From positions 32,761,229-32,825,228 of the forward strand of contig CM049314.1 in NCBI GenBank assembly GCA_026874595.1: DNA of 64,000 nucleotides. Reading direction: 5' to 3'. A program made the translations under genes and the position numbers. This document shows positions 6,501 to 64,000 of the stretch, one piece after another. How positions within the stretch are numbered: the stretch's first letter is position 1; every line of letters begins with the position of its first letter. Source of the DNA: Sipunculus nudus. Taxonomy: Eukaryota > Annelida > Sipuncula > Golfingiida > Sipunculidae. Below the pieces are notes generated by a model. It searched no databases and was not told the DNA's origin. It saw nothing but the letters and a program-made list of their open reading frames with translations.

Positions 6501-7561
6501 GGCTGTTAAAAAATTTACCTCATACATTCCAACGTGATGACTGTATTCCATTAGTTCTCAGAAATTTCAGTAACTGAATTTATGATTAACTAAGAATTTT
6601 TTATTAGTTTTCTAAATGCTCTAAAATTTATGCTCCTCATGTAGCTTTAAACGGTGTTTTATACAGCAGGTTTCTCTGGGCCAAGCAGTGGCGGATTCAG
6701 GATTTTGCTATTGGGGGGGGGGGGCACAAGGGTTAGACAACACTTTGACCCTAACTTCACCAAGCAACTGTGCAAAGAGGAACATCAAATAAAAAAAAGG
6801 GGGGGATATTAAGCGTTGACGTTGATTTGACGTACGAAAAATTCGTTTTGTCGGACCAGATAAGGGCAAACAAAAAATTTTAAAAAAGTTACCGAACACT
6901 TGTTGCAGTATAAACTGTAACAAAACTTAATGGCTTAAAAATGATACGAGTCGCGTATGAGAGTCCATTGACCAAGGGACGTACGAAGTATGCAGCTGGC
7001 AGCACAGAAAAATGCCATCTGTGCCCCCTCTTTATTCACCTATGGTACCACCACCGGGGCTCGCACTGAGCAAAGAACTGCATTCGGGCCAATGAGAGCG
7101 TGGTATCGCATTGTGCATCCAACTCCAAATTTTACGCATGCGACACCCGCTCTCGTTAGTCTGATTACACAGGTTCTTCCACAGGGCCGAGAATCATGCT
7201 TAGGATAGCAGCGGGTAAAGCGGAGGAGATCTGGTACGACTGCAGTGTATAACGTACTGCTGGTCCTGATAATAAATATCTAGCACTAACTATATATTAC
7301 ATAGCACTTAATGTGGAAACAGCTTCTCATACATCTGTATTTTCTTATGCAACAGCTCTTTTTATTTACATTAGAACTGATGATCTGCTAAAAGGCCATT
7401 TCGGCAATCCAAGGAATATGTGCAGATCACGGAGTGATGTACACGGATTGAGATGAATCGGGAGGACAAAAAACCTTGACGGCATCATTTTATAAACCTT
7501 AATGGTATTATATGCTTTCATCAGATATCGCATCCGAAACACGTTTCTTTGTAAGCAAAAC

Positions 7562-24800: not shown

Positions 24801-27598
24801 TAGCGGACCACCCCCTCATGTTATAAACACAGGGACATAAACAAAACGAACAACCTGAGGACCATGTGATCGGAGTTTTCTGGGGTTATCTTTAATTAAA
24901 CAGGCGCCGGATATCGGAATAGGCCCCTTGAATGGATTGCTCTTTAGGTGTTGTTCTAATCCCGTTAAAATATAATAAATATGTATTCAGAGTGTTAGGC
25001 CTAAAGTTGCAAACAGATTTTAAAAGCGGAAACTCTAATAATCACCTGGCGGAGGTATATTTATGATTGAAGGGCATGTATGATTATGAGACAGATATAG
25101 AGTAAGACAAAAATAAACAAACATTTCTAATTTTGTCTACTTGTAAGAGAGAAAACTGATATTAGACAGAGATATCGAGAAATCGAGATCGAGATCTCGA
25201 GAGAGAGAGAACATAAGGAAATAAAATGTGCGGGTCAATTTACATAGAGGTTTTCGATACATTCAGCCTATTTATGTAGCCACTAATTCATATTCTTTTT
25301 GTGACAGGAGGTTAATTTTGCTGTTCTAAAAGTATCCCTGTGGCTAACATAAAACTGACCCGCAGGGCACATGTTCCATCTGTAACCCTGGAGAAAACAA
25401 TGAGACTAGCTTCCTTAGTAACACAGCTTGCCTGGCACGTTGTAACCGCCTGCTGTTTAACAATTACACAAGAGAACTAAAGAACATGCCCGGGGCTGAG
25501 GAAGCAAGCTAACCTTACCTGGCTGCTCGGGAAGGGGTAATTGGAGGTTGACCGGGAAACATTCAAATATCGTACCATACAGGCGAGCCTCCTTTAGGAC
25601 GGCGACCCAACTTCCCTAAAGTAAATATTGATGGCCGCATGTTTTGCAGAAGAGTAAAACTAACTAAAAATTAGAAAAGTGGATGTCTAATGATAGAGCT
25701 GGACGGATTTACCGATATATCGATTCGAAATGATGCGTTACTTCGACATGGTTCGTGATATGCTTTGCATTTTGTATTGCCGTATGTAGAATACACAAAG
25801 ACAGCTAATACATAACGATACTTAAACATAAATGAATAGTAAAACTAACTGATATTTTACCCAATATTTACTTTAAGATGTTCCAAGCACATTTCTCAAG
25901 TAATTATTATTCTACGGTCAAAGTACATTGGAACTGGTTGTTTGACAATAGTGAAACAAATGTTCAAGCCTTCGGGAGAGGGGATCATATAAACATCCGG
26001 AAACTGGTGCAGGGATTCATATTGCCGGAAATAAACGAATATTATTTTATAGGTTACGGTTATCTTCTACTTGTAAACTAGTGATATAGGTCTAAATACG
26101 CCAATGAATACGGTGTCGAGACCAGAATTTGGTATATCAGTGCGACAGCGCCACCTAATAGTGACATCATAATGGTAACCACAGTTGGACTAGGTCTTCA
26201 GTCATCAACATGAATTACATTACCCTATTTCATCCGACGGTTTGCTGTAAGTGGTGTCAATTTATCTTCAGTGGTGGTGGTGAAGAAAGGGGGTGGGGGC
26301 GGCTGACTGGGAGTGGGAGGGAAAAAATATCTCAGATTTATAAACACACGTGTATGTGTATAAATATGTGTATACGCCTTTTAGTGTCAGTTTAACGTAT
26401 TTCAAATATAAAACAGTTAAATATAAGGTTTCCGGAATTAAGGTACTATTTTTCCAGTAAAGGTTAATAGTAAACCAGGATTAGATATAATATATTTTAT
26501 AGTTAATACAGGAATGGACAAGAATTTGTAATTCTAACTATATATATCTTTCAATTCCAAATAAAATATAAAATTTATTTTTTGAATAGCAGGGGGGTGA
26601 TTACATTTACCCCCCCCCCCTTTGCTGAAAAGTGGGGATATATACCCCCATTATCCTTCTATCGACGCTCTTATATGCAGTACATATAATAACTAATTTT
26701 AAACAAGACATTAAATTGACAAATTAATGATCCAGTTATCACATACGTTCTATATCTACACACGGCGCGGGTACGATGTTGCAACTAGCAGTTCAAGTAA
26801 TATATATGCGTATGAAGGACATGGTCGGTAAGAGAATGTTTTAAAAGTTTGATATATCAGGTTTAATCTAGGTAAAAGATAGAAAAAATTACTTTGAAAG
26901 AGCTTACCTTTAGTATCTTGGAGGTAATCTGCTATTGTCCCGGGGTCAAGGGCAGAGATTGTTAATCCACAAGTCAACTCCACATAATTCCGAACCTCAA
27001 AACCATTTTCAGTTACTTCCACATATATTTCTTTGGAAAACTGCGACCATTGGTGGTCCGAGCACGTGATTAGACTGACATATTTCCACCGGAAGTGATA
27101 AAGAAATAACCGGAGTGCTGAGCAGCTTGACTTCCGGCGCGGTGACGTATAAGAGCGTATCATGTGACCACGTGACTGTTGTGATTGACAGGTCCATGAA
27201 ATGACGAGAGATTCCATTTCAGTAGAGAGGTCGTTGGTCGGTTCACACAGCGCCCGAGCCCCTGGTCCCACCATCATTAAATGGCTACTATTGCTTGTAA
27301 ACTGTAAAAATCTACTTAAAGCTTCCTTCGTTTGGCAGGTATCGATTACTTCTGATGAAAATGATGAATTACTTGTGCCATCGGTAAACTCTGATAAGGC
27401 TAAATGAATCGTCGCGGTAATGTTTGCCTCGTACGAATGTCTACATGAAACAGGAACAAATACGGGAAGATTCAAAACGGAACCAGTCACGTGATCAAAA
27501 TGTTTAAAATGCACAAGTAGAAGAACAGCAAGCAGCATGCGGTACATCCGGGTCATCTGGACTCTGACATCACGAGAAAAAGCCATGTACAGCCGCAT
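446..27598 (-). CDS. Receptor-type (membrane) guanylate cyclase, 5' nine exons; 3' end beyond window
   Basis: Membrane receptor that would convert GTP to cGMP in response to an extracellular ligand or other stimulus. Nine exons joined with consistent phases give 615 residues. Residues about 20-40 form a signal peptide (hydrophobic core LLAVLLLV). Residues 41-426 form a ligand-binding (ANF_receptor-like) ectodomain with GPGARALCEP at 111-120, N-glycosylation sequons, and the juxtamembrane cysteine pair DTCAFDNSDC typical of the family. Residues 427-453 are the single membrane span. Residues about 455-615 are the juxtamembrane segment and start of the kinase-homology domain (GDVVFLKEL, MRELRHENINPFIGF, DVINNEDIKLDW). 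The DIKLDW-type segment is closest in my memory to GUCY2-like and invertebrate orphan receptors, so no symbol is assigned. The remaining kinase-homology, coiled-coil and cyclase domains are missing only because the window ends. Ligand unknown. Exon coordinates are listed separately. Confidence 0.93.
605..813 (-). mobile_element. tRNA-derived SINE, copy A (in receptor intron 8)
   Basis: Read on the minus strand, it starts with a tRNA-like head. GGGCCTGGTCGTTATAGAGG provides the A-box region and GTGTTCGATCCCCGG the B-box. A body of about 130 bp follows, ending in TTATAATATCTATTTGTACA at 605. Shares head, body and the TGTACAAATAG... terminus with copies at 22501 and 57194, all in the same orientation. 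Confidence 0.7.
1258..1362 (-). CDS. Receptor guanylate cyclase exon 8: kinase-homology domain, helix C to hinge
   Basis: 105 nt, phase 0/0. Acceptor cactacag before 1362, donor CTAGAG|gtaaga after 1258. Encodes residues 557-591: MRELRHENINPFIGFLND, then SIRPSLVMEFCSRRSLE. 'LRHENxxxFxG' followed by 'xEyCxRGSL' is the signature stretch of receptor guanylate cyclase kinase-homology domains. The usual RGSL is RRSL here, a conservative-looking change at the hinge. Confidence 0.93.
1543..1620 (+). repeat. GA-rich simple repeat in receptor intron 7
   Basis: GAGGGAGAGAGAGGGAGGGA-type tract. Open frames on both strands here are simple-repeat artefacts. Confidence 0.9.
2310..2390 (+). repeat. Lone terminus of the CAGTGAA..AACGACC MITE family
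   Basis: TACAGTGAAACATCGCCTAA then CGACCACCCCAGGTTAGC matches the outer MITE ends at 29174. No partner terminus was seen. It lies 20 bp from receptor exon 7. Confidence 0.4.
2410..2487 (-). CDS. Receptor guanylate cyclase exon 7: kinase-homology domain, beta3 region
   Basis: 78 nt, phase 0/0. Acceptor ttgcag before 2487, donor AAACTG|gtaagt after 2410. Encodes residues 531-556 (GDVVFLKELHLKGFELKTKT, then LAHLKL). K537 in VFLKEL aligns with the ATP-site lysine position of kinase-like folds. The segment parallels 'GdwVWLKkf' of GUCY2-type cyclases. Confidence 0.9.
3150..3465. promoter_or_regulatory. Enhancer-like block in receptor intron 6
   Basis: A dense, non-repetitive, GC-balanced stretch in AT-rich surroundings. 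It contains ATTTGCAT-type octamer sequence (TTAATTTGCATAACAG), GGCGCCAATAAG, CACGTG and several AATTA/ATTA homeodomain-type sites. No open frame or splice logic explains it. Regulatory role is inferred from composition only. Confidence 0.3.
3936..4058 (-). CDS. Receptor guanylate cyclase exon 6: linker into kinase-homology domain
   Basis: 123 nt, phase 0 on both sides. Acceptor tttctattgaag before 4058, donor GAAT|gtaagt after 3936. Encodes residues 490-530: a Pro/Ser-rich linker (SPRAGGNMPFDKPDLLKASQ) then SLSISSVHELGDFGETARLN. The end leads directly into GDVVFLKEL of exon 7, the usual 'yxGdxVxlK' beginning of the pseudokinase fold. Confidence 0.88.
4725..4830 (-). CDS. Receptor guanylate cyclase exon 5: juxtamembrane segment
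   Basis: Acceptor tttttactgcag before 4830; the first G completes Arg454. Encodes residues 455-489, KYLARREMHRGPHKL then ILTAEDLVYINSRAQHRGTR, matching the family's 'LTxDDLxFIN' segment after the basic stop-transfer stretch. The 3' end is uncertain. ACAAGG|gttggt (4725) preserves the frame into exon 6 but is a weak donor. GATAA|gttatt (4699) reads on for eight more complete codons but leaves two bases and breaks the frame of exon 6. Boundary confidence is lower than for the other exons. Confidence 0.8.
5152..5236 (-). CDS. Receptor guanylate cyclase exon 4: transmembrane helix
   Basis: Only 85 nt. Acceptor tttttcag before 5236, donor CTCAG|gtgaga after 5152. GG completes Gly426 left by exon 3. 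The exon then encodes 27 almost entirely hydrophobic residues (427-453, starting FSLAVLAVIAVCSVLF and ending FIILL) and leaves AG to begin Arg454. An exon coding little more than the membrane span, with both phases matching, strongly supports the model. Confidence 0.93.
6686..6740 (+). repeat. hAT-like terminus fragment
   Basis: CAGTGGCGGATTCAGGATTT followed by a G-run is a typical hAT-type left end, distinct from the GCGTCAA family. No matching right end or 8-bp duplication was found nearby. Similar GGATTCAGGATTTT and CAAATCCTGTATCCGCCCCTG ends occur at 21178 and 58832. Confidence 0.4.
7564..7619. repeat. (AT)n microsatellite in receptor intron 3
   Basis: About 28 perfect AT units. It immediately precedes unique sequence leading to receptor exon 3. 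Confidence 0.95.
7805..8138 (-). CDS. Receptor guanylate cyclase exon 3: C-terminal ectodomain up to the membrane
   Basis: Acceptor is ctgtttcag before 8138 and donor TGCGGAG|gtaagt follows 7805. Phase 0 in, phase 1 out; residues 315-425 plus one base. It starts NIDSRLYNAMSLAMQTW, the family helix 'SRLYDAvmlyA', continues through a beta-rich part with NTT, NVT and NQS sequons (GYYGEAQTDLSGSVRTTYFVWDYN), and ends with IHWPHGRKPSPDTCAFDNSDCG. That last segment is the juxtamembrane tryptophan and double-cysteine motif of receptor guanylate cyclases. Confidence 0.92.
8506..8942 (+). mobile_element. hAT-type MITE copy 1 (in receptor intron 2)
   Basis: Ends AGTGGCGTCAATTAT and TATTGACGCCCCTG, matching the intact copy at 47043. 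Flanked by TCGGGGAAG on the left and TCGGGAAG on the right, an 8-bp duplication with one extra G. Internal sequence contains G-runs and TGGTGG repeats and no transposase. GGCCTAAGTCCTG-type sequence beyond the right end is unrelated. Confidence 0.65.
9479..9507. promoter_or_regulatory. Paired POU octamers in receptor intron 2
   Basis: Two perfect ATTTGCAT octamers at 9479-9486 and 9500-9507, starts 21 bp apart (two helical turns). A CTGTCAGATGA Meis/Pbx-like site lies 20 bp upstream. POU binding to ATTTGCAT is established; function here is inferred. Confidence 0.35.
9905..10155 (-). CDS. Receptor guanylate cyclase exon 2: ligand-binding domain
   Basis: Acceptor is tttctttacag before 10155 and donor CACAG|gtacat follows 9905. 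Begins with CT (completing Ala231) and ends in phase 0 after residue 314. The protein VILLMDQSDVRTFLLAGSD followed by GDYAVFVM matches the typical second-lobe strand and helix ('vvilc...r.ll..A......gdYvff'). NAS sequon near the end. Both splice phases fit their neighbours exactly. Confidence 0.9.
10542..11153 (-). other. 203-codon open frame in receptor intron 1, unexplained
   Basis: An unusually long open stretch for such AT-rich DNA (stop codons are expected roughly every 14 codons). Starts MLPKSLRLIKSNVIINVHML. Rich in Lys, Leu, Asn and Ser with clustered Cys/His (NASLCQTHSIKCNKYFANHC). No family recognised, no repeat match within the window. Lies 390 bp 5' of receptor exon 2 on the same strand. 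May be chance, a decayed transposon frame, or a small intronic gene. Confidence 0.2.
12600..12871. repeat. Compound microsatellite (TATA/TGTA, CT, TA, GA)
   Basis: TGTATATA units (12600-12690), then after a tRNA-like fragment, (CT)n 12788-12812, (TA)n 12815-12842 and (GA)n 12843-12871. The CT and GA tracts flank the TA tract and can fold into a hairpin. Confidence 0.9.
12690..12760 (+). repeat. tRNA-like fragment between microsatellites
   Basis: GATCGTGGGTTCAAATCCGA has a good B-box, but the 5' side is lost in a TATA/TGTATA microsatellite (12600-12690) and the 3' side meets CT/TA/GA tracts (12788-12871). Likely a SINE remnant whose flanks were replaced by simple repeats. Confidence 0.35.
13480..13545 (-). 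repeat. tRNA-like SINE head fragment
   Basis: Minus-strand sequence contains GGATCAGTCGCTGGACGTCA then CACGGTTCGATTCCTGA, with A-box- and B-box-like blocks at tRNA spacing. A poly-C run (13441-13462) sits next to it. It lacks the anticodon-arm pairing expected of a functional tRNA, so it is called a SINE remnant. Confidence 0.45.
16476..16600 (+). repeat. Dispersed repeat family R2, copy 1 (short)
   Basis: TGGCTGGTTTGTCTGTTAGC, ACTCAAAATCTTATGAACGG and GATGAAATCTTTGGGAAAG are the family's 5' blocks. The GATCCGGATC block is missing. Confidence 0.45.
16716..16805 (-). repeat. 18-bp tandem repeat, five copies
   Basis: CATTTTCTGTGATGAACA and its TGTGTTG variant repeat every 18 bp. Because 18 is a multiple of three, the minus strand reads as a repeated six-residue unit (KMCSTQ/KMCSSQ). 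No other coding evidence. Confidence 0.85.
17455..17725 (-). repeat. Dispersed repeat family R1, copy 1
   Basis: Shared blocks on the plus strand: TCCGGCCAATATCGCAATGTTCATTC, CGGATCATGTGCCGGATCCA, TTGCGTGAGATATGTTGTGA, then a CACACA tract and GGAATGAACGCATA. The same blocks in the same order occur at 28640 and 57800, and inverted at 44365. No inverted termini or coding sequence recognised. Confidence 0.6.
17836..18128 (+). mobile_element. TTAA-flanked (piggyBac-like) MITE, 293 bp
   Basis: Flanked by TTAA on both sides (17832-17835 and 18129-18132). The left end is AGGTGCCCATTCAC and the reverse of the right end is AGGGGCCCAATCACCC, giving a 14-16 bp imperfect inverted repeat. The interior (TGATTTCTGGCTTATT, GTTGCAAAACGCCATTTGC) recurs at 24480-24790 and, inverted, at 41100-41395. 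No transposase. TTAA duplication is the hallmark of the piggyBac superfamily. Confidence 0.7.
20388..20424 (-). CDS. Candidate alternative first coding exon of the receptor gene
   Basis: On the minus strand an ATG at 20424 opens MRSVWRVLFLQS and reaches the donor CAATCAG|gtaatg at 20388 in phase 1. That is the phase needed to join receptor exon 2 (G + CT = Ala). A TGCGCATGCGCC palindrome (NRF1-type) lies about 430 bp upstream at 20853-20864. The product would lack the signal peptide exon and the N-terminal lobe. A one-in-three phase match can be chance, so this is only a candidate. Confidence 0.25.
22501..22683 (-). mobile_element. tRNA-derived SINE, copy B (in receptor intron 1)
   Basis: Same family as the element at 605-813. 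On the plus strand it reads TGTACAACTAGTTATAATAA, then GCAAGGCACTCTCCATAGTTCGG, the body, and the degenerate head GCCACACCGGGGTTTGGACC. The B-box is mutated (GGTCCAAACC), so this is an older copy. Confidence 0.65.
23818..23893 (+). repeat. Tandem repeat of about 31 bp, 2.5 copies
   Basis: TTTGACTGATTAACGAGGTTTTGTGTACATTTTGACTGATTAACTAGG pattern: the unit TTTGACTGATTAACGAGG plus TTTTGTGTACA is repeated with one decayed third copy (TTTTGATTGACTAGCGGAGC). Confidence 0.8.
24480..24800 (+). repeat. Diverged relative of the TTAA-type MITE
   Basis: Shares CTATTCACCTACC near the left, TGATTTCTGGCTTACT, a TTTGTAAACA block and TTGCAAAACGTCATTTTGC with the element at 17836-18128. Terminal repeats are eroded. 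Confidence 0.5.
25519..25615 (-). CDS. Orphan exon candidate inside receptor intron 1
   Basis: Excellent splice signals: acceptor atatttactttag before 25615 and donor CCAG|gtaagg after 25519. Only one of three frames is open: GSWVAVLKEARLYGTIFECF then PVNLQLPLPEQP, starting phase 0 and ending with one base. It cannot follow receptor exon 1 in frame (phase 1 into this exon meets a TGA). It could precede exon 2, belong to another minus-strand transcript, or act as a poison exon. The product is not recognised. Confidence 0.35.
26250..26671 (+). mobile_element. hAT-type MITE copy 2, diverged (near receptor exon 1)
   Basis: Aligns with the copies at 8506 and 47043: AGTGGTGTCAATTTATCTTC at the left, then a TGGTGG-rich part, AATAGCAGGGGGGTGAT and GTGGGGATATATACCCCC near the right end, and a decayed terminus TATCGACGCTCTTA. 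No clear target duplication, so an old copy. It ends about 240 bp from the receptor exon 1 donor. Confidence 0.55.
26908..27598 (-). CDS. Receptor guanylate cyclase exon 1: signal peptide and N-terminal ligand-binding lobe
   Basis: Encodes residues 1-230 plus one base (phase 1). The first Met of the open frame is used; Met15, Met18 or Met21 would put the start nearer the hydrophobic core LLAVLLLV (21-30) and are equally plausible. Sequons are at N59 (NIT), N77 (NSS) and N103 (NSS). GPGARALCEP (111-120) followed by ISWTC places C118 and C137 as the likely conserved disulfide. LRLFLYHFRWKYVSLI (162-177) matches the family's 'LLxHFxWxxVxLI' segment. The exon ends ACTAAAG|gtaagc at 26908, and the next exon supplies CT to complete an Ala codon. 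The open frame reads on into the intron to 26756. Confidence 0.92.
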
Positions 27599-27627
27599 CG
27601 TCTTGGTAACAGCCCCTACATGCTGGA

Positions 27628-27635
27628 TGACGTCA
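27628..27635. promoter_or_regulatory. Perfect CRE (TGACGTCA) just upstream of the receptor start codon
   Basis: The palindrome TGACGTCA lies 30 bp upstream of the first Met of the receptor gene. CREB/ATF binding to this octamer is established. Whether it is in the promoter or in transcribed leader is not visible, and no TATA box is obvious nearby. Confidence 0.45.
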
Positions 27636-28639
27636 CATCACATGTCTATACGTTCAACTCAGCTGGGGGTTGGGACTGGCAGGGTTTTACGGGCAGTCAG
27701 CTGGTGTCCCTTGCTGGGCTGTTTGATTTGAGCAGCGTCAGCCGAAGCTCTCGTAAGTCTCGTTGCCAACGCGCCATTTGGAAAATCTTTTAGTTATTGT
27801 TAAGCCACGTTCAATTCTGTCTGTATACATTGTCATCAATGGCCACCGTCACAAGAAATGCCTCATCAACGAAGTCTTCAAAACGTGCCTGGAACGAAAA
27901 TGACAGATTTAAATGACAGTTACATAGTTATCAAAGCTTAACAATGCAGTTATGGAAACCTCGCCAGTGAAGGGCCCGGCGTATCGTCATCCGAGACCGT
28001 CTGGAGTATGCGTCTGACTCAAGGGATCATTCATGGCTTGTCTTTAGCTATTAAATCCAGGACCGGTGTTACGAACAGATGTAACCTTGTCAGGATCTAC
28101 CCGTTATACCATCGATTGTAGCAATTAATGCAGAAGGGCGTTGAAACTTATGAAGACAGACTGTCATGTTCACTTGTATATATGGTGTAATTCTTTCTTT
28201 ATTTCTAAATATAATGAGAGTCGGCCTTGAACTTTAACTTGTTTACCGTGCACCATGTGGGTACGTGGGGGTGTGTTATGAAACAGCAGGTATAATTAGG
28301 ATAAAACATTATGTCATATCGTGAGAGTCTGGTATCACATTTAGACTTATAATTAAACCCGTGGGTTGAAATAATCCACCATTAGGCGAACAGATACAAT
28401 GCCGGCATTGTTTATATAGAGAACCAAAGTTATAATCTAAAGAATGCTTCCGCGGGGGTGTTCATTCTGGTTGACTTTGAGATATAGGAAGTATGACACG
28501 ATGCTCACACATCCTGCTTTTTTCTCTCTAATTGTTCTAAATTTTGAAGAAGAGACCAACGTGGACCCGTGATTCTTTCTGCGACTTCCCTAATTTTGTA
28601 TGATGTATGCCACACTGATTTTATAACGCAAAACTAGAA

Positions 28640-59334: not shown

Positions 59335-59505
59335 AATACAAACTGAAGAAATACAGAGGAGACCCAATGCAAACGAATGAAATATAGAGAAGAGACCCAA
59401 TACAAACATAAAGAAATACAGAAGAGACCCAATATAAACAAGAGATATACAGAAGAGACCCAATACAAACTATTGAAATACAGAAAAGACCCAATACAAA
59501 CAAAA
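59335..59505 (-). repeat. 32-bp tandem repeat, about five copies
   Basis: GAGACCCAATACAAACATAA then AGAAATACAGAA repeats every 31-33 bp. On the minus strand all three frames stay open and read as repeats (for example YWVSSVYLLF, ILGLFCIS), giving overlapping false frames up to 158 codons. Confidence 0.9.
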
Positions 59506-59599
59506 CTAGACGACCAGAGGTCGAACGCTTGCCGGAAGTTGAAATGACAGACAGATGGACAGACAGAACATATTGTGGGTTTTCTATTATTTGAATGAC

Positions 59600-60600
59600 C
59601 CTCAGCGTTTGCTGAGAAGTTGTGGCCTGTAAAATGACATATCAGACAAAACAACGAGGAAGCAGACAAAGCTGACCACAAAAGACTAACAGACAAACAT
59701 ACTGACACATCTGTGATAACAGATTACCAGACAAAAGTGCCGAAGGTAAAGAAGAGCAAAATTAGCGATGGTTTATGTAGATAAGGTTTATAATTTTGGA
59801 GATATGGCCAAAACATGATATGTTGGGGAGGTGAAGGTGCAGCGCCCCCTAGTGGCTAAATGAAAAATCTGTTTTGAGATATTAGTGAAACACATAAGAT
59901 GTACCAGTTTTAAAAGGATTCCTGAAAAAAAAACTGTGGCCTGTAGAATGCTATATATGAGACGCAAGAACCAGCAAGTAGGCGGATTTGAGGACAACTG
60001 ACAAACAGACAGACACACTGACAAAGTCATACAAGAATGAGACCAGATGACATTACTAGGTCATGGAGAAGACTCAGGGAAAGAAAATAAGCCATAGTTT
60101 CTGTAATTGAGGCTTTGGGTTTTAGAGATATGGTCAATATAATGATATGTGTGTGAGGGTCAGGTGCAGCGCCACCTAGCGGCCATATCCGGAAAATGAA
60201 AAAAAAATTGTGAGAAAATATAACATGCATCAGTTTTCAAATGCTTCTTTAAAAACTGTGGCCTGTAGAATGCTATATGCGAGACGCAAGAATCAGCAAG
60301 CAGCCAAATTTGAGGACAACTGACAAACAGACGGACACACTGACAAAGTGACACAAGATTGAGACCAGATGACATTATCAGTTTATGGAGAAGACTCAGA
60401 GGGAAAAAAATAAGCTATAGTTTATGTAATTGAGCTTTGGGTTTTAGAGATATGGCCAATGTAATGATATGTGTGTGAGGGTCGTATGCAGCGCCCCCTA
60501 GCAGCAATATTCAAAAAATGAAAAAACCATTTCGAGATACTAGTGTAGGACTTATGATATGTCAGTTTCAAAATGATTCCTGCAATAATGTGGCCTTTGG
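59600..60600. repeat. Mosaic array module P: about 324-bp tandem units, three copies
   Basis: AGATATGG(C/T)CAA...ATGATATG recurs at 59800, 60126 and 60448 (spacings 326 and 322). Each unit holds a CGCC(C/A)CCTAG block, a TTTTGAGATA-type block, GTGGCCTGTAGAATGCTATA, and GACAACTGACAAACAGAC with CACTGACAAAGT. The first half-unit begins at 59622. Confidence 0.85.
59841..59856 (-). promoter_or_regulatory. CTCF-like core in module P (first of five)
   Basis: AGCGCCCCCTAGTGGC, reverse GCCACTAGGGGGCGCT, matches the established CTCF core CCACNAGGGGGCGC. Equivalent positions in other units: 60168-60184, 60490-60505, 63153-63167 (ACGCCCCCTGGTGGC) and 63615-63630 (ACGCCCCCTGGCGGCC). All five point the same way. 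Binding is inferred from sequence match only. Confidence 0.45.
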
Positions 60601-60945
60601 CGCAAGATGAATGAAATCTCGAAATATCTCTATTCACGAGATATTTTACGAGATACTGCAAGACTTGTAATAAAATCTTGTAGTACTAGTTGAATGCTAC
60701 CTGATGCAAAAAACTAGGTCTCTCTAGCTTTAACACTGACAAAGTTAGAAAAATAAGACCCCTTAATTTCGAATATCATGACTTTTCCCCCAAAATTTAT
60801 AACCATGGTTACGGCAAATTTGAGTCAGCTACACACCAGATGACAGGCCTTGGAATGACAATTAAAATGAGCTATTGTTGAAGTAGATACAACTAATAGT
60901 CACAAAGATATGAAGAAAAAACCGTTTTGAGAAGTTTTGATGACC
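60600..60945. repeat. Mosaic array modules S' and T
   Basis: S' (60605-60720) has ATCTCG...CGAGATATTTTACGAGATAC and AAAAAACTAGGTCTCTCTAGC, a diverged relative of the 149-bp satellite. T (60760-60940) has CCCCCAAAATTTATAACCAT, GGTTACGGCAAATTTGAGTC and TGAAGTAGATACAAC. T recurs at 62940, 63440 and 63720. Confidence 0.7.
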
Positions 60946-61915
60946 TTGACCTTGACCTTTCACTTATTTTGACCAAAAACAATAAGGCACCTAGAATTTT
61001 GGTTGTTTATCATCCCTAAAAGTTTCAAGGTGATTGTGGCAAAATTGTGGCCAGGAGAGTGATGACAAACAAACAAATGAGGTTGATACGACCATATTTG
61101 ACCAAGTGATGAAGAAAAGAAAATTTCGAGGTTTTTCGATGACCTTGTCCTTGACCTATATTGACGAAAAACGATAGAGCACCTTGCATTTTATTTTTTC
61201 GTCATCTCTGTAAGTTTCAAGGTGATTGCGGCAAAACTGTGGCTTGTAGTGTCGTAAATGTGAGACAGAACAACAAGGCCGTTGACAAAATTGACAACAA
61301 CAGAGGAACAGACAGACATACTGACAAGGTGACACATGGCCAGCAAAGGTTGAGCACCCTTTGATATGGGGAATGGAAAGACGAACAAAATGAGGTAAGA
61401 ATGAGGTTGATACGACAATTTGTGACAAAGTTTTGAGGAAAATACGGTTTCGAGGTTTTTTGAGGGTCTTGACCTTGACCTTTGACCTATTTTAATAAAA
61501 AACAAAAGACTGCCTAGAATTTTGCTTGTCCATCATCTCTAAAAGTTTCAAGATTATTGCTGCAAAACTATGGCCTGTAGTGTCGTAAATGTCCGAAAGA
61601 ACAACAAGGCCGTTGACAAAATTGACAACAACCCTGAAACAGACAGACATACTGACAAGGTGACACAAGGCCAACAAAGGATCATCATACCAGGATATGG
61701 GCAATGGAAAGACGAACAAAATGAGGTAAGAATGAGGTTGATACGACAATTTTTAACCAAGTTATGAGGAAAATAAAATTTTGAGGTTTTTTGATGACCT
61801 TGACCTTAACCGTTTACCTTCATTAACCAAAAACAATAGGGCACCTAGAAATTTAATTCTCCATCATCTCTGAAAGTTTCAAGGTGATTGTGGCAAAATT
61901 GTGGCCAGGAGAGTG
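60941..61915. repeat. Mosaic array module Q: CCTTGACC units, four copies
   Basis: Units begin TGACCTTGACCTTGACC-like at 60941, 61140, 61469 and 61795 (the last three about 327 bp apart; the first is short). Each continues CCAAAAACAATAGGGCACCT, AGTTTCAAGGTGATTGTGGC and GTGGCCTGTAGTGTCGTAAA. The latter half (GACAACAACAGAGGAACAGACAG.. type) is homologous to module P. A fifth copy starts at 63897. Confidence 0.85.
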
Positions 61916-61922
61916 CAGACAG

Positions 61923-61960
<38 letters not shown>

Positions 61961-61988
61961 GGACAGACAGACAGTCAGACAAACAGAC
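61915..61988. repeat. (CAGA)n microsatellite
   Basis: CAGACAGACAGACGGACAGA tract ending module Q. Minus-strand frames reading VCLSVCLSVC are artefacts. Confidence 0.95.
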
Positions 61989-62005
61989 ATACGCAACTGA
62001 GCAAT

Positions 62006-62036
62006 ATGCTTGCCGAAATCTTTGATTCCGGCAAGC
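62006..62036 (+). repeat. Perfect 9-bp stem-loop between modules Q and S
   Basis: TGCTTGCCG and CGGCAAGCA pair perfectly around a 13-nt loop, followed closely by AACTAG. A hairpin shortly before CTAG resembles the 3' end of Helitron-type elements, but the base after CTAG is C rather than the usual T, so this is suggestive only. Confidence 0.5.
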
Positions 62037-62040
62037 AACT

Positions 62041-62870
62041 AGCTGCAAAAGTCGCGGTGTTATCAGCAGTTACGTGAAATCATGTTTTTTTTCTCGCTTG
62101 ACGAGATATAGTACGAGATTTGGCAAGACGAGCAGTTTTATTATGTCAAGACGGCCAAACGTTACGAAATGGCGAAAACTAGATCCGTCTAGCTGTAAAA
62201 GTCGCCGAGTTATAAGCATTTCCGTGTACTCTCGTGTTTTCTCGTTTGACGAGATATGGTGCAGGATTTGGCCAGTCTTGTAGATTTGTCATATCAAACT
62301 CTCTAAATGTTACGAAATGGCGAAAACTACATCTGTCTAGCTGTAAAAGTTGCCGAGTTATTAGCATTTCTGTGAAATCTCCTTTTTTTATCGTTTGACG
62401 AGATATGGTGCGAGATTTGGCCAGTCTTGCAGGTTTGTCATGTCAAGCCGTCCAAATGTTAATGAATGCCAAAAACTAGACCTGTCTAGCCGTGAAAGTC
62501 GCCGACTTATATGCATTTCTGTGAAATCTCGTTTTTCCACATTTGACCAGATGTAGTGCGAGATTTCGCCAAGTATCGCAGTTTTACTATGTCAAGTTGG
62601 CCAAATGTTACCAAATGCCAAAAACTAGATCTGAGTAGCTGTAAAAGTCGCCTAGTTATAAGCATTTCCATGATATCTCGTTTTTTTCTCGCTTGACGAG
62701 ATATGGTGCGAGATTTGGCCTGATTTCTTTTCTGGCGTGTCAAGCTGGTCATATGTTATGAAATGCCGAAAACTAGACCTGTGTAGCTGTAAAAGTCGCC
62801 GAGTTATAAGCATTTCCGTGAAATCTCGGTTTTTCTCGTTTGACGATTAACCGAGCGAAATTTGACGAGA
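62041..62870. repeat. 149-bp satellite (module S), about 5.5 copies
   Basis: AGCTGTAAAAGTCGCCGAGT and variants recur at 62041, 62191, 62339, 62488, 62637 and 62785 (spacings 148-150). Each unit carries GTGAAATCTCGTTTTT, CTCGTTTGACGAGATATGGT, GCGAGATTTGGCC and AAAAACTAGACCTGTCT. ATCTCG/CGAGAT inversions allow a hairpin in every unit. Not coding. Confidence 0.92.
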
Positions 62871-62939
62871 CTTGCAATTGAATGACTTATAACCAAGGGG
62901 AAGCAGCCTTATGCAAAAAACTAGACCCTTGAAACATAA

Positions 62940-64000
62940 ATATTAACCGAGATAGAAGCCAAAAACTGCATATTTTCAGATCGTCAAGTTTAACCCACAA
63001 ATTTGGTAACCATGGTAACGGCAGCACAAAGCTACATGTGCGGAGGAATAAGCCAATGTTCCTAGTTTAAGATACAACGATAAAAATTGTGCCATGTTTA
63101 AAATTATTGTAGATATTGCAGAAAAATGATATGTGTTAGTGTTTCAGGTACCACGCCCCCTGGTGGCTATTTCCAAAAAATGAATATATTAAGATATTAA
63201 TATAAAGATATTTATAAATAACACAAAATATATCAATTTCAAAGCCATTGTTAAAAAAATGCAACCTGTAGGTCATATTTAATGAAATCTCGAAGACTCT
63301 CGTTTGACGAGAAACGGTGCGAGATTTTGCAAGATTTTTGATTGGATCACCGAGAGCTCACCAAGGGCTACAAGATGCAAAAAAATTGACCTCTCCAGCA
63401 TAAAAGTTAGAGTTAGAAGCTGAAAACTGCATATTTTCAAAATTCAAAAGTTTTACCCCAAAAATAGAGAAATCTGGCAATAGCGCACTTTGGCACCTAT
63501 GCGCAAAAATAAGCCCATGGTACCCAGTTGAAGGTGCTGTGATGGAAATGGCCCAATGTTTAATAGTTCTGGAGGTATAGCACCAAAACAAATTTTCATG
63601 TTTTTTCATCTGCAACGCCCCCTGGCGGCCATTTCCAAAATCTGAAAAAACAATTTCGAGATATTCTTGTGTTACATAAAATATCTCAGAATCAGTACGA
63701 TTGCTGCAAATTTGAAAAATATCAGGAAATTCCATGATTTCTCCCCGAAATTGCGTAACCATGGTAACAGCAAATTTAAGTAAGCTACATGTCAAAAGAA
63801 AGGCCAGGTGATGACGAAATAAATGAGATATTGCAGAAGTGGATAAGCCTATTTATGGCGAAGTTATAGTGCAAAAACCGTTAACCATACCTGTCGTGAC
63901 CTTGACCTTGACCTTTGACCTATTTTAACCAAAAACAATAGGGCACCTAGAAATTATGTTTTTCATCATCCCTGTAAGTTTCAAGGTGATTGTGGCAAAA
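62940..64000. repeat. Mosaic array continuation: T, P, S, T, P, T, Q modules to the window edge
   Basis: Order: T at 62940-63060, P-like at 63105-63260, S-like at 63285-63330 (CTCGTTTGACGAGAAACGGT), T-like at 63365-63560, P-like at 63565-63710, T-like at 63720-63890, Q from 63897 to 64000. A 145-codon minus-strand frame (63358-63795) crosses several modules and is a repeat artefact. The array continues past the window. Confidence 0.8.
63006..63019. promoter_or_regulatory. RFX X-box in module T
   Basis: GTAACCATGGTAAC fits the X-box consensus GTNRCC(N)RGYAAC with a 2-bp spacer. The identical 14-mer recurs at 63755-63768; a diverged palindrome TAACCATGGTTA is at 60800-60811. RFX occupancy is inference. 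Confidence 0.4.

Follow-up and report, generated by a model that had tools for sequence, protein, structure and literature searches.

We analysed a 64-kb stretch of the genome of Sipunculus nudus (the window; G000:C9:32761229-32825228), whose last 4.5 kb hold five related repeat modules, termed P, each with a core that resembles a CTCF-binding site. Our interpretation, to which we assign a probability of about 0.65, is that a mobile-element family of Helentron type, namely the non-autonomous HINEs, disperses clusters of oriented CTCF sites by means of whole and truncated copies arranged head to tail. An earlier note on this DNA had proposed that a satellite-like array seeds directional CTCF sites. 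As a whole that proposal is partly supported: the five same-orientation, repeat-borne cores were confirmed, the nature of the repeat had to be revised, and the seeding of CTCF sites by the repeat found agreement in core quality, in conservation and in the presence of a host orthologue, by a modest margin.

CTCF-like cores in the window

We ran the vertebrate CTCF matrix JASPAR MA0139.1, whose maximum is 30.8 bits, over the window. The top five matches of the whole 64 kb are the cores of the five P modules, all within 59600-64000 and all in one orientation:

59840-59858, minus strand: CTCF-like core 1, 19 bp, 27.2 bits
60167-60185, minus strand: CTCF-like core 2, 19 bp, 25.1 bits
60489-60507, minus strand: CTCF-like core 3, 19 bp, 15.1 bits, degenerate
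63151-63169, minus strand: CTCF-like core 4, 19 bp, 22.2 bits, holding the 15-mer counted 3,245 times genome-wide
63613-63631, minus strand: CTCF-like core 5, 19 bp, 23.1 bits

Four matches reach at least 18 bits in the 64 kb, compared with a mean of 0.07 and a maximum of 1 in 60 dinucleotide shuffles. Core 3 is a weak site, having T in place of C where CTCF sites are almost invariant. The conserved block, previously given as beginning (A/C)CGCC, is with one letter corrected (G/A)CGCC(C/A)CCT(A/G)G, and the top scorers are the copies at 59840 and 60167 instead of those formerly quoted as best. Under an independent-base model the 27.2-bit core has p = 2e-10 per position; since the P copies are related, a chance origin would require one lucky ancestor, not five.

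The array continues for 6.6 kb past the window edge, to about G000:C9:32,831,793 (position 6565 of the adjoining stretch, L009), where five more cores are found in the same orientation (22.2, 22.3, 20.9, 26.4 and 24.5 bits). This brings the whole array to ten cores, all oriented alike, of which nine reach 20 bits or more. The following 10 kb (L010) contain no element module and no site of at least 14 bits.

The array is composed of HINE-type elements

Judged from its sequence, the array is a composite of tandem and truncated non-autonomous Helentrons of the HINE/Pearl type, with the following parts:

59506..62040, minus strand: HINE copy (non-autonomous Helentron), 5' end at about 62038 and 3' end at about 59506
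62024..62038, minus strand: 5' (left-flank) subterminal inverted repeat (subTIR), with GCTTGCCGGAA at 62026-62036
62006..62020, minus strand: complement (inverted repeat, IR) of the 5' subTIR, forming a hairpin with it
61916..61989, minus strand: GTCT/GTCC microsatellite of the left flank, reading CAGA on the plus strand
59527..59537, minus strand: 3' subTIR, 11 bp, an exact inverted copy of the 5' subTIR
59511..59523, minus strand: 3' palindrome CGACC-TCT-GGTCG, after which come CTAG and T-rich DNA
59747..59947, minus strand: module P1
60073..60269, minus strand: module P2
60397..60602, minus strand: module P3
63073..63272, minus strand: module P4, inside a neighbouring, end-truncated element copy
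63533..63724, minus strand: module P5
60879..61899, minus strand: four D modules, with two Q modules between; D bears TGACCTTGACCTTGACC or a variant
62036..62879, minus strand: S, a 148-bp tandem repeat belonging to the neighbouring element copy
63730..64000, minus strand: N and D modules, reaching the edge of the window; a right end lies 69 bp past the edge

The features shared with HINEs are these. First, the 5' subTIR has a complementary IR within 1-12 bp, the 11-bp subTIR (62036-62026) and its complement (62018-62008) being separated by 7 bp. Second, a microsatellite follows the IR. Third, the internal tandem repeats are satellite-like and fixed in orientation. Fourth, a palindrome follows the 3' subTIR. 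By chance, 0.005 exact matches to the 3' subTIR would be expected between both element edges. The four-part pattern of subTIR, complement, inverted subTIR and palindrome occurs at one place on both strands of the 64 kb and in none of 60 shuffles, and the same pattern minus the palindrome occurs three times in 60 shuffles.

Right ends were also surveyed at other loci, with L001-L008 set aside both here and in the survey of core-spanning copies described below. The palindrome is present in 16 of 25 right-end-like rows, several of the other nine being left-end arms read on the opposite strand; its stem is CGACC/GGTCG in nine cases and TGACC/GGTCA in seven, a compensating change. T-rich DNA lies beyond many right ends, as read from the insertions themselves.

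P4, P5 and the S array are situated between the left end at 62036 and the next right end, in L009, and this interval contains no further left-end hairpin or right end; we therefore assign them to a truncated copy. S meets a left end in the same way (AGCTAG followed by TTGCTTGCC) at L015 and L021, and three inner copies of L009 retain their right ends. P and D units share their first part (Q) and their 3' end and differ most in mid-unit, where P has the CTCF-like core and D has TGACCTTGACCTTGACC or its variant. A pattern for the P module that leaves the core out is AATGATATG, 45-75 bases and TTTCGAGATA.

Two further observations concern the element and its border. The D modules contain TCAAGGTCA, which we take to be the extended half-site of ERR/SF1-type nuclear receptors, at 60941-60955, 61470-61478, 61795-61803 and 63897-63911, with six exact copies on one strand and 0.47 expected in the window. 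A 31-bp tandem repeat of 5.4 copies (59335-59505) adjoins the element's 3' end.

Genome-wide abundance and clustering

The exact 15-mer of core 4 is present in 3,245 copies in the 1.43-Gb genome, against about 0.2 expected from base composition and none for the reversed control. The left-end hairpin pattern has 3,118 matches, with doubled hairpins counted twice, and its reversed control again has none. Among the matches listed, exact-core places are dispersed over both strands of contig 1. A conventional tandem satellite would account for the tandem arrangement of modules, with units of 148, 322 and 331 bp. However, it is contradicted by the element ends, by the dispersal on both strands of contig 1 and by the more than 3,000 left-end hairpins; the plain satellite reading was dropped once the element ends had been found, and we now consider it highly improbable. 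What had been described as satellite-like consists of tandem and truncated Helentron-type elements.

Clustering was assessed among the 100 exact-core places listed, all on contig 1. They form 41 clusters, 15 of which have at least two cores; 36 spacings fall below 1.6 kb, their median being 1,282 bp; and 51 of 52 pairs of neighbouring cores within 5 kb are on the same strand. One of the large arrays lies at C1:43,580,719-43,604,023. At L002-L008 elements of about 1.27 kb lie in tandem, typically with one left-end hairpin and one core per unit, although some units have a doubled hairpin, and at a shift of 1,269 bp L005 shows 95% identity with its own sequence. Among 18 isolated core loci picked from the same 100 places, 17 show a P module among S, N or D modules, and 17 have an element end (the left end in 14, otherwise the right end with palindrome in 3), L025 having neither. 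At L025:1449-1467 the exact 15-mer forms part of a 24.3-bit site that lies outside all element modules and may be a CTCF site of a different type.

The earlier note had read the shared orientation as a sign of directional function, which our data do not support. A common strand is expected of tandem copies, as it follows from tandem duplication, and it is therefore no independent evidence of directionality.

Conservation of the core

In the five window copies, over seven cross pairs, identity is 0.78 in the core and 0.58 in the flanks (fixed-position permutation, P about 0.006), and an equal number of randomly placed changes would cut the core scores more than observed (P 0.006).

A broader survey yielded 73 core-spanning copies, from which we removed 17 of L011-L028 that carry the selecting exact 15-mer. 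One more was lost on length or N, leaving 55 aligned; subtraction of three D-type copies without a P core gave 52, and removal at a flank identity of at least 92% gave 30. In these 30 dereplicated P and R copies (R being a relative of P, described below), the changes counted by parsimony amount to 2.50 per column in the core and 3.74 in the flanks (P 0.006), so that across copies the core is better conserved than the rest of the unit, with a modest margin. Core changes tend toward low-information positions of the matrix (rho -0.43; P 0.04 in a one-sided permutation and 0.08 in a two-sided test), and the core variants observed are milder than those not observed (P 0.016). The median score is 22.2 bits over the 27 ungapped cores, and 22 of the 30 copies score at least 17 bits, 19 of them at least 20 bits.

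A further line of evidence comes from an unselected sample, namely 20 random 10-kb stretches of contigs C1-C9 (the first 20 of 60 drawn). Queries in which the core had been masked found 14 P copies, confined to two of the 20 stretches (200 kb in all). A core was scored as kept when a site in the predicted orientation lay inside the match or at most 80 bases away; this was the case in 11 of the 14 copies at 17 bits or more, and in 10 at 22 bits or more. In the same 200 kb there are 24 sites of at least 16 bits, against none for the reversed matrix. At 18 bits or more there are 18, of which ten fall in P, four in the variant R and four elsewhere, the reversed matrix again giving none. The core changes in R are tolerated by the matrix, and several R copies have half a core only. 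The R core, TAGCC(G/C)CCAGATGGC(G/A)CTG, was seen at L044:8736, 9361 and 9954 and at L048:9073; the R copies of L044 are about 600 bp apart and oriented as the P copies of that stretch.

Several results weigh against constraint on the core. In the window, a test for the best 15-bp stretch of the module does not single out the core significantly (P 0.19), the information content of the variable core columns is not significantly lower (P 0.13), and boxes of comparable conservation occur in modules S, D and Q. A simulation of neutral decay returned P values from 0.0003 to 0.45, varying with the assumed rate and ancestor, on which the result hangs, and we count it as weak support only. In the set of 30 copies, 4 of 138 contiguous windows in the flanks equal the core in conservation, and eight copies are without a 17-bit core, three of them being gapped. 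The former claim that in the window the core is kept better than its diverged surroundings holds at fixed positions and loses significance when the core must be the best window. The five window copies alone make a weak to moderate case for constraint, and the larger set supports a modest one, with about one third fewer changes than in the flanks.

The same data bear on the possibility that a CTCF-like sequence in P was a passive passenger, spread by transposition and tandem amplification, silenced and unbound, its conservation reflecting recent spread. Some arrays are indeed recent amplifications, as the self-identity of L005 attests, and both the conserved boxes of the other modules and the reduction of core changes by about one third only would suit this explanation. 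However, the core mostly persists in the R variant and in dereplicated copies that have diverged, its changes tending towards positions where CTCF is tolerant, and a 27-bit site is improbable by chance at 2e-10 per position. We consider a mere passenger unlikely, at perhaps one chance in five.

The host CTCF and other candidate binding proteins

A search with the fingers of human CTCF identified one clear CTCF orthologue at G000:C11:67037728-67038510 (303.5 bits, 56% identity, in an open frame of 989 aa), the next zinc-finger match scoring 154.5 bits. The best PDB match of the encoded protein is the chain of 7w1m named Transcriptional repressor CTCF (E 2.8e-95), which we take to be human. The helices of what are presumably fingers 3, 4 and 5 read TTSGELVR, VELSKLKR and PDTYKLKR, in comparison with VTSGELVR, VEVSKLKR and RDTYKLKR in human; from finger 6 onward the protein diverges more. 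Binding of the intact cores by host CTCF is, on these sequences, likely.

The core could alternatively be kept for another DNA-binding protein, either a different zinc-finger factor or a protein partnering the Helentron. The genome has 453 zinc-finger matches to the CTCF query, and excerpts of the paper on the oyster elements discuss satellite motifs recognised by transposase-related proteins (PMC7492417). Against such a protein speak the match of the core across the 19 positions of the CTCF matrix and the nearly human helices of host fingers 3-5, and we regard it as unlikely, somewhat more so than a passenger. Contig G000:C16 holds many of the zinc-finger matches listed, which suggests a large zinc-finger gene cluster there.

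Outside the arrays, 249 kb yielded nine sites at 16 bits or more, where 60 column-shuffled matrices averaged 1.7 and reached 15 at most. This weak excess of CTCF-like sites outside arrays, which is suggestive at most, weighs against our interpretation.

What the dispersed sites may do

We propose that P modules inside the elements bear, on the element's sense strand, a full-length predicted CTCF-binding sequence. Rolling-circle transposition, which we infer from family membership, would scatter the elements, and tandem read-through would build the arrays; in this manner each insertion or array would bring from one to many CTCF sites in fixed orientation. Binding of intact cores by host CTCF would then explain why the core is better preserved than the remaining module sequence. 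Bound clusters might stop cohesin and insulate, or they might merely serve the element. In vertebrates, the orientation of a CTCF site sets the side from which extrusion is stopped, and if cohesin were blocked in the window, its minus-strand sites would stop extrusion arriving from the left.

It is tempting to speculate further that thousands of HINE insertions and arrays act as oriented, cohesin-stopping CTCF clusters that have rewired genome folding, and that they represent CTCF-dependent extrusion barriers outside vertebrates, although we hold this doubtful. If true, this would be a lineage with repeat-made directional boundaries, in which the element may benefit by using CTCF to remain in open chromatin. 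Our main interpretation is weakened by the general observation that abundant repeats are often methylated and silenced, which could block CTCF. Also against it, CTCF motifs in the annelid Dimorphilus are mostly at promoters, without a clear directional arrangement, and the authors doubt an architectural role of CTCF (PMC7854359). In the squid Euprymna, boundaries are enriched for a CTCF-like motif (PMC9023564). Taken together, this literature makes binding in a non-vertebrate bilaterian plausible and an architectural role less certain.

A related alternative is that the host has exapted the arrays as directional insulators, that is, as one-way cohesin barriers resembling Dxz4. The largest clusters among the 100 places listed, of 14, 14, 11 and 10 exact cores, are nearly all on one strand per cluster, and their kind of spacing (median 1,282 bp over the 36 spacings below 1.6 kb) together with Dxz4, where an array of one-polarity CTCF sites can work in this way according to the excerpted account (PMC6985041), would favour it. 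Yet orientation is a by-product of tandem duplication, and CTCF-dependent loop extrusion is described, in excerpts of a 2025 survey, as so far unobserved outside vertebrates (PMC12221973). Exaptation seems to us improbable, about on a par with a passenger. Returning to dispersal of oriented CTCF-site clusters by the HINE family, thousands of element-borne and often clustered oriented CTCF-like sites, together with a CTCF orthologue, offer a ready-made test of one-way barriers and of whether such barriers arose from a rolling-circle-type transposon.

Other features of the window

The minus strand has a 293-aa open frame at 26756-27637; it encodes an ANF_receptor ligand-binding domain (PF01094, E 3.4e-12) and probably represents one exon of a gene for a receptor. 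Scans of the window for Rfam families and tRNAs gave nothing, as did searches of plasmid and phage DNA, two viral-contig patterns and one prokaryote-genome pattern.

Comparison with known systems

Literature searches for Helentron with CTCF and for the literal core string returned no report. Those for Helitron with CTCF binding, judged by title and the start of the abstract, gave none about CTCF sites on Helitrons, and those for CTCF with molluscs, satellites, transposable elements and tandem repeats gave no such case among the titles listed. Helentron-borne CTCF-type sites, as predicted here, appear to be new, whereas element-borne CTCF sites as such are already known. SINE B2 and other retrotransposons are reported to carry CTCF sites in mammals (Schmidt 2012, as cited in PMC6598467). 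As with these, a mobile element would here spread CTCF sites; unlike SINE B2, a mammalian retrotransposon, this is a Helentron-type DNA element, often with several predicted sites per array. The ISX Helitron family of Drosophila miranda also spreads a binding motif for a chromatin complex; the motif is that of the dosage compensation complex and not of CTCF (PMC6598467).

In the DXZ4/Dxz4 macrosatellite, too, tandem repeats carry CTCF sites that share one polarity, but it is a single X-linked locus of mammals with proven binding and contacts, whereas here a dispersed mobile family carries predicted sites (PMC6985041). The motif in the terminal inverted repeat (TIR) of placozoan Mutator elements provides a non-vertebrate case of a transposon-borne motif at chromatin loop anchors; the transposon is a different one, and non-bilaterians lack CTCF, according to the excerpted survey (PMC12221973).

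The closest relatives are the Cg_HINE/Pearl non-autonomous Helentrons of bivalves, which have, in the excerpted description, a 5' subTIR of 11-12 bp with a complementary IR 1-12 bp away, a GTCY microsatellite, satellite-like repeats of fixed orientation, a palindrome after the 3' subTIR and a T-rich target (PMC7492417). A CTCF-like core is not mentioned in those excerpts (PMC7492417). In the superfamily, according to the oyster paper, whole elements can repeat in tandem and inner copies are often cut at the 3' side (PMC7492417), yet here three inner copies of L009 retain their right ends. Unlike Cg_HINE/Pearl, the S. nudus elements mix several module types and lie in tandem as whole elements.

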